A stretch of DNA of 12,567 nucleotides from the NCBI GenBank assembly GCA_002431865.1, contig DJEI01000012.1, positions 28,166-40,732 of the forward strand, read 5' to 3'. Numbering within the stretch: position 1 is the first letter of the stretch; every line of letters begins with the position of its first letter. This document shows, piece by piece, positions 7,401-9,046 of this stretch. The translations under genes and the position numbers were made by a program. The stretch is from Lachnospiraceae bacterium UBA5902 (lineage in GTDB: Bacteria; Bacillota; Clostridia; Lachnospirales; Lachnospiraceae). The notes below the pieces were generated by a model. That model saw only the letters and a list, made by a program, of their open reading frames with translations, was not told the DNA's origin and did no database searches.

Positions 7401-9046
7401 AACCCCTGTTCCTCTCGGTTCGCCTGCAGATCATCCTGGTACTCTTTATATGCTACATTTGCAGTATCGATTGAATATCGGTATTCCGTTGGCTCCTGTG
7501 TTTCAGATTCATCCTCACGATCGATCATTGTTACTTCATTATCTGTAATTTGAAAAACTTCAAGCAATTTGCCATCGATAACAAATTCCTCACCAATTGT
7601 AAACAGTATACTACCAGTTGAATTGACAATATTTTTTCTCTCTGATATTATATTTTCGACGCTGATAGATGTGTTCTCATGGGGCAATTGGAGCCCCAAT
7701 GAACGAAGCATTTTATCAGCGTCGTTATTATCTAAAAAAGAAGAAGCCTGCATAGCTTCTTCTTTTTCCTCATTTATAACAGATCTCTCTCGATCAGCTT
7801 GAGTTTCTCCTCCGGATAATGCCCCATCGGCAGAATCACTTCTTCGAAGACGATCTCTCTCGTCGTATCCCGGAACTGCTCCGCTCTCCGTACTACTTCC
7901 ATGAAGTCCGGTGATGTCTCCCTGCGCCATGCGTCCAGCTTCTTCTGCTCTGTCTGCATGATCTGATCGTACAGTTTGTATGCTTCGTACTGCACTTCCT
8001 TCGCTTTGTCCAGAAACAGTCTGTACTCTTTCGCTCCGTCCGTTGAATCCTTGCTGGCGCTTATCTGAATCGGATGCAGTGTCTGCCCGAACTGATCCTC
8101 GATCACGTGAATCCACTGGAATGCGAACAGGTTCAGAAACTCGCTTCTCCATGGAGGTTCCTCTTCCATCTCGTAATCCTCCATATCCCACGTCATTGCG
8201 TCCGACATATACGTCTCTGTTGGTAAGTCCAGCTTGAAAATTGTCTGTTTCTTCACGATGTAAAGTGGCAGCATCTCGTCCCTCGGAATGCTCCGGATAA
8301 ACTCGTCCCACTCCTCGTCCGTATCCACTGCCGGTACTTCTCTCCCGTTGCTCAACTTCTCTGTTCTGATCATAATCATCCACCCTCTCTTTCTTAATCT
8401 TCGTAAGCTCCATTCTAATATTCTGAATCAAATCTCTGCTGATAGAATGTGCTTTGTCTAATACGTAATATATATCATCCGGTTGGAATCCCCTTACAAC
8501 AGATGCTAACCGGGATTTTTCGTTGTTGCAGTCCACTTCCAGCCGCTCATACACTATAATGCTCGCTGCCAGAAAGACCTCATCTTTATGATTCAATTCT
8601 TCCTCTGATTTTAATATACTACTTATCCTATCGGAATACAAGGTTTTTATTTTTTCAGAGGAAAATTTATTTTTTTCATAATATGTCTGGATTATTTCCG
8701 TCGAAAATAAATCTTCATATAAATCCAACTTACCATCAAGCACTTTCGTATCTTCGTATGCGTACAAAAAAAATGAACCTGGATAATTAGGTTCATTCCC
8801 AAAGATGCATATTGAATTTTTCCCCTTCTCAATATGCCGGTTTGCTTCACTCATCCAACGATCATATGTATTAAGAGCCGTTGCATATGGTTTTTGTGAA
8901 CAGACGGCAAGCACATTGTCGATATGCTGGAGATCTGTCATGCGTGAACAGCACAGCAACACATTCTCATATACAGATTGATCATTTAACCGTCCTCGTA
9001 TCATATTATAAGCACTATTTCTGTCTCGTTCTCTCTTCGTTGCCAT
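1475..9046 (-). CDS. Giant ArdC-like / N6-adenine methyltransferase-like / SF2 helicase polyvalent protein
   Basis: At 2523 residues this is the dominant gene and resembles the large polyvalent DNA-processing proteins of conjugative elements. Residues about 28-100 match the ArdC N-terminal ssDNA-binding/antirestriction domain (QKPYAT about 51-56, W64, EKGKNSICIF about 73-82). Residues 223-424 are a low-complexity R/G/S/D/E-rich linker overlapping another reading frame. About 560-700 is a small conserved module (IKQEYGLGGASW). About 900-1160 is an adenine-methyltransferase-like Rossmann domain: YCGWGG near 943, motif I EPSMGVG at 1010-1016, motif IV NVPFG at 1073-1077. About 1690-2260 is a complete SF2 helicase: Walker A GAGKS 1710-1714, DEAH 1870-1873, ATGTP motif III, GTGVNVQ, and motif VI QRNGRGIRQG 2203-2212. 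The C-terminus is coiled-coil-like. The start ATG 9046 has AAGGAGGG at about 10 nt. It probably remodels or modifies transferring DNA; substrate unknown. Confidence 0.93.
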   Translation of the reverse strand: MATKRERDRNSAYNMIRGRLNDQSVYENVLLCCSRMTDLQHIDNVLAVCSQKPYATALNTYDRWMSEANRHIEKGKNSICIFGNEPNYPGSFFLYAYEDTKVLDGKLDLYEDLFSTEIIQTYYEKNKFSSEKIKTLYSDRISSILKSEEELNHKDEVFLAASIIVYERLEVDCNNEKSRLASVVRGFQPDDIYYVLDKAHSISRDLIQNIRMELTKIKKERVDDYDQNREVEQRERSTGSGYGRGVGRVYPEHSEGRDAATLHREETDNFQAGLTNRDVYVGRNDVGYGGLRDGRGTSMEKRVSEPVRIPVDSRDRGSVRADTASDSDKRQQGFNGRSERVQTVSGQSEGSAVRSIQTVRSDHADRAEEAGRMAQGDITGLHGSSTESGAVPGYDERDRLRRSDSADGALSGGETQADRERSVINEEKEEAMQASSFLDNNDADKMLRSLGLQLPHENTSISVENIISERKNIVNSTGSILFTIGEEFVIDGKLLEVFQITDNEVTMIDREDESETQEPTEYRYSIDTANVAYKEYQDDLQANREEQGLTQQPVEYQQMDMFAMLGIDTTPTSAKINKNPLAGQYHNPTNHSVVRQKYIDEVLKRGSGFAGGKYRIAQMYKDNTLTASARAAKIKQEYGLGGASWATDGKPGVHGYDTHQSNKGIRIQWTDEQGENEGYVSWRDVEKNIAWLISTNNYIEEEIKQPEQAQEEVLEQTDTSEMAETAEIIEEVPVPALTPADKDNIQDLLLNVDFSGYAYARAFLQTVCTNDDLTAAEQASFFAALMCDNDSKEYTLYYRTNPVDVRTNLEDVKIVYNNMEYHISYGDLVERLKYKLSRGGFGEYCTQEDLISVQDVINTVNTGVYASYREALAEKAQIKEKEKQPAIDYHYNPEQFAQTLQGAGAKTRFGWNLEAIRTLKKVETEGRFATPEEQECLAHYCGWGGLFKAFDDQDEKWSKEYKELKELLTEEEYASARSTVNDAFYTDPDVAAAVGQILVNCGYTEGNLLEPSMGVGHIIGSLPVEQNFKRYGVEIDSISGRIAKLLYPNMDIQIKGYQNTTYSDGFFDCAIGNVPFGNYKPYDPRYNKHNFKIHDYFFAKTVDQVRPGGLVVFITSTGTLDKTNSNVRRYIGERAELIGAIRLPNTAFKNLAGTEVATDILVMRRREYPVALDETWYHLSYTDDGIPVNEYFIDYPDLCLGKMQYDIGRFGPESKYTTCVPDSRDFKVRLKDIVQRFSADIYREPDQVSEKEETIPADPNVPNFTLTVIDGKAYHRDNSTMKDMKYSSANVKKVKQYIALHKVARHVIQIQYEGCSDEELKLAQSELNETYDKFVEENGHISDTSNVKILGMDDNYSFMNSFEEKLEDGSVRKTDIFTKRTINPVHEITEVENAFDALRVSLTQNGKVDINFMLGIYSPDLSSMDISEMSPDEIYAAKRNILIQELHHVIYLDPAEYDPDNLDAGWHTADDYLSGNVREKAKKAIEMSGDETMGTTFMDNAEMLQGVIPEDIPYTDIDVKLGSSWVDPEDYAEFMFETFHIAPFDRNTYRWIRSDSTKYVGIKLIPGTMEYRVTGQSKCKWNAYCNSVFGTEKMNAAAILERTLNFKQVTVYVPGTQSKEVDREATMLAREMQEKIKLEFKDWFWRDEERREKYERKYNDMFNSVKLREYDGSFLEFPGMNANISLKQHQKNAIARILLGGNTLLAHCVGAGKSFEMIASVMEQKRLGLVNKPLMIVPKAIVSQMESEFMRLYPSANILAVKDKDFDKKNRQRFIARIATGDYDCVIMSHSQFEMIPLTQEREIVYKKQEIDELQAYLRDLKDAKGDSWSVKRIEDAIKKREEELNKLLDVPRDNTICFEQLGVDALYVDEAHNFKNMAIFSKINNVAGIPTASSKKAFDMRMKCRYINEISGGKGLVFATGTPVSNTMAEMFVMQSFLQPERLKELGINVFDAWLGSFGEIQASLELKVAGNGYKVKNRVKNFQNVPELMTIFKEVADIQTADMLELPVPKLRTGQPIIVECEMDDAQTDILESLIERADALEGGGVDPSVDNMLKLTNEAKLLGTDARLLNPDAPDNPQGKLFRCAETVCKEYEEHNRDGKIGCQLVFSDMGTPKADGTFDVYNTVKNYLIDLGIPKEEIAFIHDAKNDAERQEIFRKTNAGQIKVLFGSTDKCGTGVNVQTHLVAMHHIDCPWKPSAIEQRNGRGIRQGNENEEIAVYHYITKGSFDAYSWSLVENKQKFISQIMTSKPVGRTCEDIDEAALNYGVFKAVATGDDTIREKMELENDLTKLRMLKSAYNKKHREAELRVSRSIPLAIAQTKEKIEVFEQEIAYQKAHPAVNEDGETTFSMMIGSEIFTTHKDAGFALNKAISRLKCGDSLVVGEYNGYMMTAAITQKNLVGEVGEKTIYLKRKDGGKASHEVIIGLSTLGNIVKINNVYNSFEKSLDKEKGNLQKYESELLIAKEELAKGFPYESEIREKEQRLKEIDAMVTSQDVDVFDENFDSDISKVEKRGIETKKQI
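7734..7767 (-). terminator. Intrinsic-terminator-like hairpin just after the nested gene
   Basis: On the minus strand AAAAAGAAGAAGC and GCTTCTTCTTTTT form a perfect 13-bp stem around a 7-nt loop, giving the A-tract/stem/T-tract shape of a Rho-independent terminator (six T residues before an A). It starts 6 nt after the nested gene's TAA and lies inside the giant gene, where it encodes KEEAMQASSF. The outer arm is A/T only; the GC-containing core is 8 bp (GAAGAAGC), so strength is uncertain. Chance from repetitive Glu/Ser codons is the alternative. Confidence 0.45.
7774..8373 (-). CDS. Overprinted acidic protein nested in +1 frame inside the helicase gene
   Basis: I do not recognise this 199-residue protein. 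It is read on the same strand as the giant gene, shifted +1, and covers precisely the giant protein's low-complexity linker. Its composition is that of an ordinary soluble, acidic, helix-rich protein with several tryptophans (for example FLNLFAFQWIHVIEDQFG and YEAYKLYDQIMQ), and its codons are the usual ones (GAG, CTG, CAG, ATC, AAG), whereas the giant frame here is full of GGA and CGA. ATG 8373 is 9 nt from AGAGGG (8388-8383); ATG 8379 is the alternative start (201 residues, 3-nt spacing). A terminator-like hairpin follows the TAA by 6 nt. No T-ending codon precedes a codon starting AA, AG or GA, as needed to keep both frames open. A chance open frame is the main alternative, but codon use argues against it. 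Confidence 0.65.
   Translation of the reverse strand: MIRTEKLSNGREVPAVDTDEEWDEFIRSIPRDEMLPLYIVKKQTIFKLDLPTETYMSDAMTWDMEDYEMEEEPPWRSEFLNLFAFQWIHVIEDQFGQTLHPIQISASKDSTDGAKEYRLFLDKAKEVQYEAYKLYDQIMQTEQKKLDAWRRETSPDFMEVVRRAEQFRDTTREIVFEEVILPMGHYPEEKLKLIERDLL
8380..8390 (-). promoter_or_regulatory. Shine-Dalgarno sequence of the nested gene, inside the helicase coding region
   Basis: The minus strand reads AGAGAGGGTGG directly before ATG 8379 and 9 nt (counted from AGAGGG) before ATG 8373. It resembles the site of the SpoVG-like gene in this window (AAAGGGTGG before ATG 10696). In the giant gene the same bases encode lysine-free KERV-type residues (Glu-Arg-Val), so they also serve as coding sequence. 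It favours the downstream ATG and supports independent translation of the nested frame. Confidence 0.55.

Follow-up and report, generated by a model that had tools for sequence, protein, structure and literature searches.

Can a low-complexity stretch inside one very large gene be, one base on, a complete second gene? The question is raised by a 12,567-nucleotide stretch of DNA (the window) from Lachnospiraceae bacterium UBA5902 (contig DJEI01000012.1, positions 28,166 to 40,732), in which a giant open reading frame (ORF) for a methylase-helicase encloses a second, same-strand ORF within the segment that encodes its linker. A preliminary description of the window had proposed that the second ORF is an overprinted gene hidden in this linker, and the central proposal holds on the grounds of recurrence, purifying selection, and the ribosome-binding sites set out below. 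The favored explanation, to which a probability of about 0.88 is given, is an old, fully embedded dual-coding pair of a mobile element, whose small protein would be made from an internal ribosome site and would probably be the partner of the giant. The small protein appears to be related to TnpV, a family known mainly by name. The features concerned are the following.

1475 to 9046, minus strand: giant ORF of 2523 amino acids, with an unclassified N-terminal segment, a linker, and N6-methylase-like and SNF2-type helicase regions
7774 to 8377, minus strand: linker of the giant (residues about 223–424), on the same bases as the nested ORF
7774 to 8379, minus strand: nested ORF of 201 codons plus stop in the +1 frame of the giant, for a divergent TnpV-related protein
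8380 to 8387, minus strand: Shine-Dalgarno-like sequence GAGGGTGG, 6 nucleotides upstream of the ATG at 8373
7735 to 7767, strand not set: hairpin past the nested stop, within the giant coding sequence

The borders of the linker had been described as matching those of the +1-frame ORF, and the nested ORF indeed spans giant codons 222.3–424.3. It holds 201 codons from the ATG at 8379 and 199 from the ATG at 8373; the latter is the likely start, giving 199 amino acids, as the spacing to the Shine-Dalgarno-like sequence, itself found where it had been reported, is better there. The reported codon peculiarities were likewise recovered. Twenty-three codons of the nested ORF end in T and none of the 23 precedes AA, AG, or GA, though 73 of 200 codons start so, and aspartate in front of such codons is GAC in 4 of 4 cases, with 9 GAC and 8 GAT overall. 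Synonymous shuffles of the nested ORF produce a mean of 6.5 stops in the giant frame (0 of 2000 stop-free), and shuffles of the giant linker produce 4.2 stops in the nested frame (0.3% of 5000 stop-free). No other open +1 run of the giant exceeds 91 codons. A chance ORF is ruled out for the window and the Bacillota set by the shuffles in both directions and by recurrence. The terminator-like hairpin that had been placed after the nested gene exists, but with 1 site against 0.5 expected in shuffles it is not above chance.

The preliminary description had further suspected that the linkers of related helicases hide the same gene. Relatives were collected with the methylase-like region of the giant as bait, so the linker played no part in choosing them.

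5681 to 6382, minus strand: methylase-like region of the giant

The bait matches 35 of 150 genomes of the same family, the window's own included, and 52 loci besides the window were fetched, which account for 53 of the 57 matches listed apart from the window's own; the four left out were weak or fragmentary. The decisive lead was provided by distant giants, where strong TnpV matches directly follow the N-terminal part. With a TnpV profile built from 23 TnpV seeds and a threshold of E ≤ 0.01, a same-strand nested TnpV ORF is present in 48 of the 52 same-family loci, two of them weakly (L096 and L099). Of the remaining loci, L097 gains a nested TnpV with broader profiles, L065 is a split giant, and L095 and L108 are without TnpV. 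A second set of named loci comprises the best 80 of at least 575 from GTDB species genomes; a contig scan with the window's own methylase alone gave no matches, and the alignment succeeded as query. Truncation on the 5′ side was judged alike with or without TnpV, and the ORF is nested in 58 of 64 loci with a complete 5′ side and in 5 of 16 with a cut one. The six complete loci in which it is not nested are L132, L137, L171, L184, L185, and L186, the last carrying TnpV in a frame-broken giant. The same-family and named sets overlap, as four locus groups share identical nested DNA.

In every nested case (48 same-family, 63 named) the frame is +1, and some of the nested places exceed Pfam's own TnpV cut-off (e.g., G127:C7 and G110:C57). 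The hosts of nested loci include, by record title, Lachnospiraceae, Oscillospiraceae, Christensenellaceae, metagenome-assembled genomes of Bacilli, and Amedibacillus. A strong Shine-Dalgarno sequence lies ahead of an in-frame ATG in 84 of 94 nested genes (3 of 97 were left out, having no 5′ end) versus 12 of 1940 matched anchors elsewhere in the giants. The nested TnpV usually occupies giant residues of about 250–450. Two exceptions, L100 at residues 665–771 of the open frame and L188 at 49–157, indicate that the linker is not fixed in place.

Selection on the nested frame was measured on 109 nested entries (97 distinct domain sequences), from which 32 disjoint pairs with 1.5–25% divergence were drawn. 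The ratio of nonsynonymous to synonymous substitution rates (dN/dS) is 0.297 (0.244–0.347), which reveals purifying selection, and differences at nested codon positions 1, 2, and 3 number 265, 176, and 521 of 3295 each. For the lineage of the window, 37 relative giants (P0003–P0039), which are mutually similar and not independent, were compared as proteins. All 201 of 201 linker residues align without a gap in each of them. Position 1 of a giant codon is position 3 of a nested codon, and the single-step linker replacements against P0028 fall at giant positions 1, 2, and 3 in 24, 5, and 0 cases, respectively, compared to 43, 41, and 15 elsewhere in the giant. Position 1 against positions 2 and 3 combined thus gives 24 versus 5 in the linker and 43 versus 56 elsewhere (Fisher p 2.4e-4), and pooling the distinct replacements over all 37 relatives gives 56 versus 26 in the linker and 174 versus 218 elsewhere (p 9e-5). 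Twenty-one of the 29 linker replacements against P0028 can be silent in the nested frame.

These measurements bear directly on the idea that the overlap is a captured remnant, i.e., that a tnpV gene was swallowed by the giant and is read as a spacer, while production of the small protein has ceased, with only inertia keeping its frame open. Such inertia would fit a giant frame without residue-level constraint and a window copy that has strongly diverged from other TnpV proteins. It does not account for the low dN/dS over the 32 pairs, for linker changes in the window's lineage that avoid nested positions 1 and 2, for the strong Shine-Dalgarno sequence ahead of most nested ATGs, or for the lack of any linker insertion or deletion (indel) in the 37 relatives, and a remnant is accordingly held to be highly improbable.

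The opposite idea is that only the small gene is real, the giant being two separately translated proteins (the N-terminal segment and the methylase-helicase) joined by a frame that is open for no reason. An Acaryochloris plasmid, in which the TnpV gene is an independent neighbor, speaks in its favor, as do a few giants that seem split (L065, L186, and perhaps L095 and L184). It is countered by the giant frame itself. Nested genes are free of stops in this frame through the selection of cases, while the frequency of 48 of 52 and 58 of 64 is not built in, and 30 non-nested TnpV genes bear 1–10 stops in the equivalent frame. Changes that create a stop in the giant frame occur at only 0.116 (0.053–0.188) of the rate of other nested-synonymous changes. 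Beyond stop avoidance, the giant-frame peptide is hydrophilic and nearly devoid of cysteine: compared to stop-free synonymous nulls it holds 1 cysteine instead of 44.5 expected over 97 sequences, fewer hydrophobic residues (0.199 versus 0.230), more acidic residues (0.211 versus 0.192), more serine (0.090 versus 0.064), and less tryptophan. The bias persists at 39 clusters, and in two controls (the 30 non-nested TnpV genes and 186 giant segments read in a shifted frame) hydrophobic residues, polar residues, acids, and cysteine deviate in the opposite direction. Outside the overlap the giant is constrained, with a dN/dS of 0.335 in the N-terminal part and 0.184 in the methylase. That only the small gene is real is therefore scarcely probable. 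Given the deficit of stop-creating changes and the departure of the composition from the nulls, the linker is most simply taken to be translated and kept hydrophilic, not conserved residue by residue.

The window ORF itself is a distant relative of the recurring gene. The preliminary description had called for a search with the 199-residue protein, and the outcome places it with the TnpV family of mobile elements, not among orphans, the window copy being very divergent. The Pfam TnpV profile (PF14198) matches residues 124–182 with 22.1 bits (E 1.6e-4), below the level of family membership, and a profile of the nearest nested relatives scores 22.4 bits where the best of 2000 shuffles reaches 9.7, so that homology to the nested TnpV-type proteins of the relatives is found at the sequence level.

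7831 to 8007, minus strand: part of the nested protein (residues 123–181 of the 199-residue form) that aligns to the C-terminal half of TnpV-type nested proteins

While this C-terminal half weakly matches TnpV, the N-terminal half of the window copy is extended and different. The look-up of the window ORF returned a single close protein (P0001, 96%) and no matches in phages, plasmids, viral contigs, or 60 other relatives, and NCBIfam gave no match for the nested ORF. A typical nested relative is predicted to fold into a β-hairpin and five helices (predicted local distance difference test score, pLDDT, 87.9). The window ORF is thus best regarded as a relative in the same slot, not as a filed TnpV member, and as one of the weakest of the series. 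Its case is made by place, frame, codon evidence, the lineage test, and the similarity to the nearest nested profile.

The arrangement extends beyond the Bacillota genomes, as seen in 24 annotated records (L112 and L193–L215). Eight Bacillota plasmids, from Ruminococcus albus, Monoglobus, Streptococcus suis, Anaerococcus, Cohnella, Virgibacillus, Listeria welshimeri, and Subdoligranulum, carry the nested ORF in the +1 frame, with 24.5 to 154 bits against the all-nested profile. Five phage giants (Vibrio VvAW1, Pseudomonas Itty13, Erwinia PEp14, Ochrobactrum POI1126, and Klebsiella SopranoGao) hold, immediately ahead of the methylase, a divergent +1-frame TnpV-like ORF, and those of VvAW1, PEp14, and POI1126 are DarB-like by annotation. 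The profile used for the phages was assembled after weak first matches had been seen; the four phage ORFs outside it score E 5e-11 to 1.4e-9 over 4545 ORFs, or 4e-6 to 8e-5 when VvAW1 is also removed, and VvAW1, left out of the profile, has an own E of 0.0011. Two Arthrobacter-type plasmids have a TnpV-like sequence in the +1 open frame, where it is annotated as a separate hypothetical protein. In the cyanobacterial Acaryochloris plasmid, TnpV is a separate upstream neighbor gene that overlaps the giant by 8 nucleotides. Seven of the 24 records (Burkholderia, Vallitalea, Lactococcus, Campylobacter, Rhizobium, Acetobacter, and E. coli) are without TnpV. In the single GC-rich phage and actinobacterial cases the probability of finding no stop is 0.09–0.50 for the giant frame and 0.008–1.0 for the nested frame; chance openness is a possibility there by the shuffles, and the case is made by homology, position, and start site.

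Some of these records show peculiarities of their own. The annotated giants of the Arthrobacter-type plasmids L205 and L210 start at 7289 and 7235, inside methylase matches that begin at 6998 and 7031, and the deposited start is probably too far downstream. In the Pseudomonas phage Itty13 (L212), an open frame of 4112 codons with a methylase match (1140–13475) opposes three annotated minus-strand genes, which may have been called on the wrong strand. Three records without TnpV (L206, Campylobacter; L207, Rhizobium; L208, Acetobacter) have +1 ORFs of 165, 191, and 109 codons, respectively, before or over the methylase start that bear no similarity to TnpV and may be either chance or nested genes unrelated to it.

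A tree of 124 sequences largely separates nested from non-nested TnpV, with 2 label changes versus a shuffle mean of 27. The best single split (support 0.76) unites 83 of the 94 nested sequences with none of the 30 non-nested ones and leaves 11 nested ones outside. The TnpV distances correlate with methylase distances (Spearman 0.855) and with distances of the N-terminal part (0.901), which is what joint inheritance of the unit would lead one to expect.

Two further explanations accept the small gene and differ in what becomes of its product. In the first, ribosomes sometimes shift into the nested frame, which would join the N-terminal segment of the giant to TnpV. It is prompted by the Sinorhizobium phage PBC5 (L211), where the upstream giant orf33 has the TnpV-like domain (minus strand, 23490–23711 on that strand) as its C-terminus, in the +1 frame of the methylase ORF. 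The frame may switch naturally within the overlap, or PBC5 may simply carry an indel or a sequencing error. A frame shift is not needed where, as in most nested genes, a strong internal start exists, and a fusion of this kind is considered most improbable.

The second, which is the main functional rival, holds that the nested protein is real but serves as an Xis-like excision factor of the element, unrelated to the giant, and that the overlap is a matter of history. The TnpV of Tn4451 has been postulated, in a passage of PMC3158075, to act in excision on account of its homology with lambda Xis. Among 20 scanned proteins neighboring non-nested TnpV genes, 6 contain relaxase, coupling-protein, or serine-recombinase domains. 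This reading is opposed by the fact that, in plasmids and phages of several phyla, the TnpV-type gene stays at the methylase-helicase. The predicted fold of the typical nested copy is without a PDB match at E ≤ 0.001 and neither supports nor excludes this role. Overall, an excision factor is possible, though unlikely. The likeliest role would be that of a partner of the methylase-helicase, given that the gene precedes the methylase across elements from several phyla.

A number of observations weigh against the favored pair of partner genes. Recurrence is not complete, as the giants L095, L108, L132, L137, L171, L184, and L185, in addition to the seven annotated records, lack a nested TnpV. The window ORF falls under the Pfam TnpV gathering cut-off (27 bits), exceeds the best shuffle only slightly with the seed-only profile (11.2 versus 9.5 bits) and by just 3.7 bits with the all-nested profile (21.1 versus 17.4 bits), reaches a hhalign probability of 1.9 (E 0.026), and yields a poor AlphaFold2 model (pLDDT 58). 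Eight of the 29 single-step differences from the P0028 linker necessarily alter the nested protein. The neighbors of non-nested TnpV genes are mixed (20 proteins scanned) and give no functional lead.

The giant frame provides the other points on this side. Both frames had been thought to be constrained; this is true of the nested frame residue by residue and of the giant frame for openness and composition only, as its nonsynonymous/synonymous (N/S) ratio at nested-synonymous third positions is 0.90 (0.61–1.47), i.e., there is no purifying selection at the residue level, and the corresponding ratio at giant position 3 is 1.81 (1.32–2.38). Both controls also hold fewer stops than their shuffles (4.8 versus 6.2 and 5.7 versus 7.2), and the control of 186 segments is likewise low in tryptophan, basic, and bulky residues, so these parts of the bias are not specific. 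The synonymous rate (dS) is lower in the nested frame than in the flanks (0.21 versus 0.33–0.36, p about 1e-7). It is similarly low at giant-synonymous (0.236) and giant-nonsynonymous sites (0.212), and the low nested dS is consequently no proof of constraint on the giant frame.

In the dual-coding arrangement that is preferred here, the giant ORF would encode a DarB-like methylase-helicase whose low-complexity linker is, one base on, the gene for a small helical TnpV-related protein. Ribosomes would enter the giant mRNA internally and produce the small protein (about 115 amino acids, 199 in the window) beside the full-length giant. The small protein may assist the methylase-helicase as an accessory factor that binds DNA or protein, and the giant residues encoded there would be a mere flexible hydrophilic spacer between the N-terminal segment and the enzymatic part. 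Nesting would keep both genes together and co-expressed. The translation of the nested protein, its partnership with the giant, and its function are inferences. In the probable original state, the small gene stood immediately upstream of the methylase-helicase gene, as it still does in the Acaryochloris plasmid, and the frame of the giant later extended through it. In a broader and doubtful version, TnpV would be the cognate partner of DarB-like methylase-helicases across phyla, the pair being older than the split of its carriers and embedded for most of its history; the stand-alone tnpV genes of small mobilizable elements, which often insert into the SNF2 gene of a larger element, would then be escaped copies through which the small element cooperates with the partner in the larger one or takes its place.

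The assignment of the giant rests on its domains, which are located as follows.

8380 to 9046, minus strand: N-terminal segment upstream of the linker, best Pfam match no better than E 0.039
3413 to 3949, minus strand: SNF2-related domain (residues 1700–1878)
2411 to 2662, minus strand: Helicase C-terminal domain (residues 2129–2212)

The Pfam matches to SNF2-rel_dom and Helicase_C exceed the cut-off, while Eco57I stays under it. The giant thus unites N6-methylase-like and SNF2-type helicase regions in a single mobile-element or phage protein, as in DarB-like proteins. Its relatives are annotated as DarB-like antirestriction or SNF2-related proteins, and four phage records annotated as DarB-like antirestriction share 37.5–39.4% identity with it in tblastn. 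An ArdC-type single-stranded DNA-binding domain (ArdC-N) has no Pfam match at E ≤ 1 in giant residues 1–222; one Listeria record is named ArdC-N, and its match spans 13% of the query. The giant can be viewed as a DarB-like protein, with protection of DNA from restriction as the predicted function.

Further genes were noted on either side of it. An AbiEi-like antitoxin (weak match) and an AbiEii nucleotidyltransferase form a pair directly 3′ of the giant (155–1406, minus strand). An ORF at 9110–9379 (minus strand) aligns to no more than the C-terminal end (positions 112–159 of 159) of the ToxN type III toxin profile and is probably a truncated toxin gene. A 214-amino acid SpoVG-domain protein (10052–10696, minus strand) adjoins the topoisomerase gene of the element; its top SpoVG match covers residues 2–82, and two stretches pass.

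The overlap also affects how these genes are recorded. Among the gene tables of seven nested Bacillota plasmids, two list TnpV without the giant (L194 and L197) and five list the giant without TnpV (L193, L195, L196, L198, and L199), where it should be noted that the plasmid gene table omits pseudogenes and that the missing giants may be so marked in the original records. Both genes are listed in the records in which they lie apart (L112, L205, and L210). As annotation of a nested pair lists just one of the two genes, databases tend to lack the protein of the other. Judged by titles and the starts of abstracts, no paper on an embedded tnpV was found among the matches listed, and none is mentioned in the term-matched main-text passages of PMC3158075, PMC9815147, PMC11913394, PMC5633684, PMC10782964, PMC5512222, PMC6606913, and PMC7168690. 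Passages of PMC7168690 and PMC9815147 describe SNF2 genes of integrative and conjugative elements as insertion sites for small mobilizable elements, some with tnpV, and it may be speculated that the tnpV copies of such inserted elements replace the interrupted nested gene.

The pair is of value because the nested gene has kin in a named family, non-nested relatives that serve as natural controls, and a place ahead of a conserved enzyme domain. It suggests that a disordered linker can pay for itself by encoding a second protein, and it would give TnpV a testable partner in the enclosing methylase-helicase.

To our knowledge, long, fully embedded same-strand genes that are conserved across phyla are seldom seen outside small viruses, and whether they are real is often disputed. 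Three known systems can be compared. With TnpV (PF14198) of Tn4451-type and other mobile elements, the nested ORFs of most relatives share the profile match; in the literature passages, however, TnpV is an ordinary stand-alone gene, whereas here it is wholly embedded in another gene. The DarB-like or polyvalent proteins of Iyer et al. 2017 (PMC5512222) have in common with the giant the combination of methylase and SNF2-type helicase in a mobile element, and differ in that the passages of that paper describe no embedded gene in an interdomain linker such as the one here; the words TnpV and overlapping are absent from its main text. In formal terms, the phage lysis gene Rz1 inside Rz offers a further likeness. 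A passage of PMC6606913 speaks of embedded spanin genes.

The likeness lies in the same-strand gene that is embedded in another frame: Rz1 is complete within Rz and has its own ribosome site. Unlike in Rz1/Rz, the host gene here encodes a giant nucleic-acid enzyme, and the overlap would double as the spacer between its domains.

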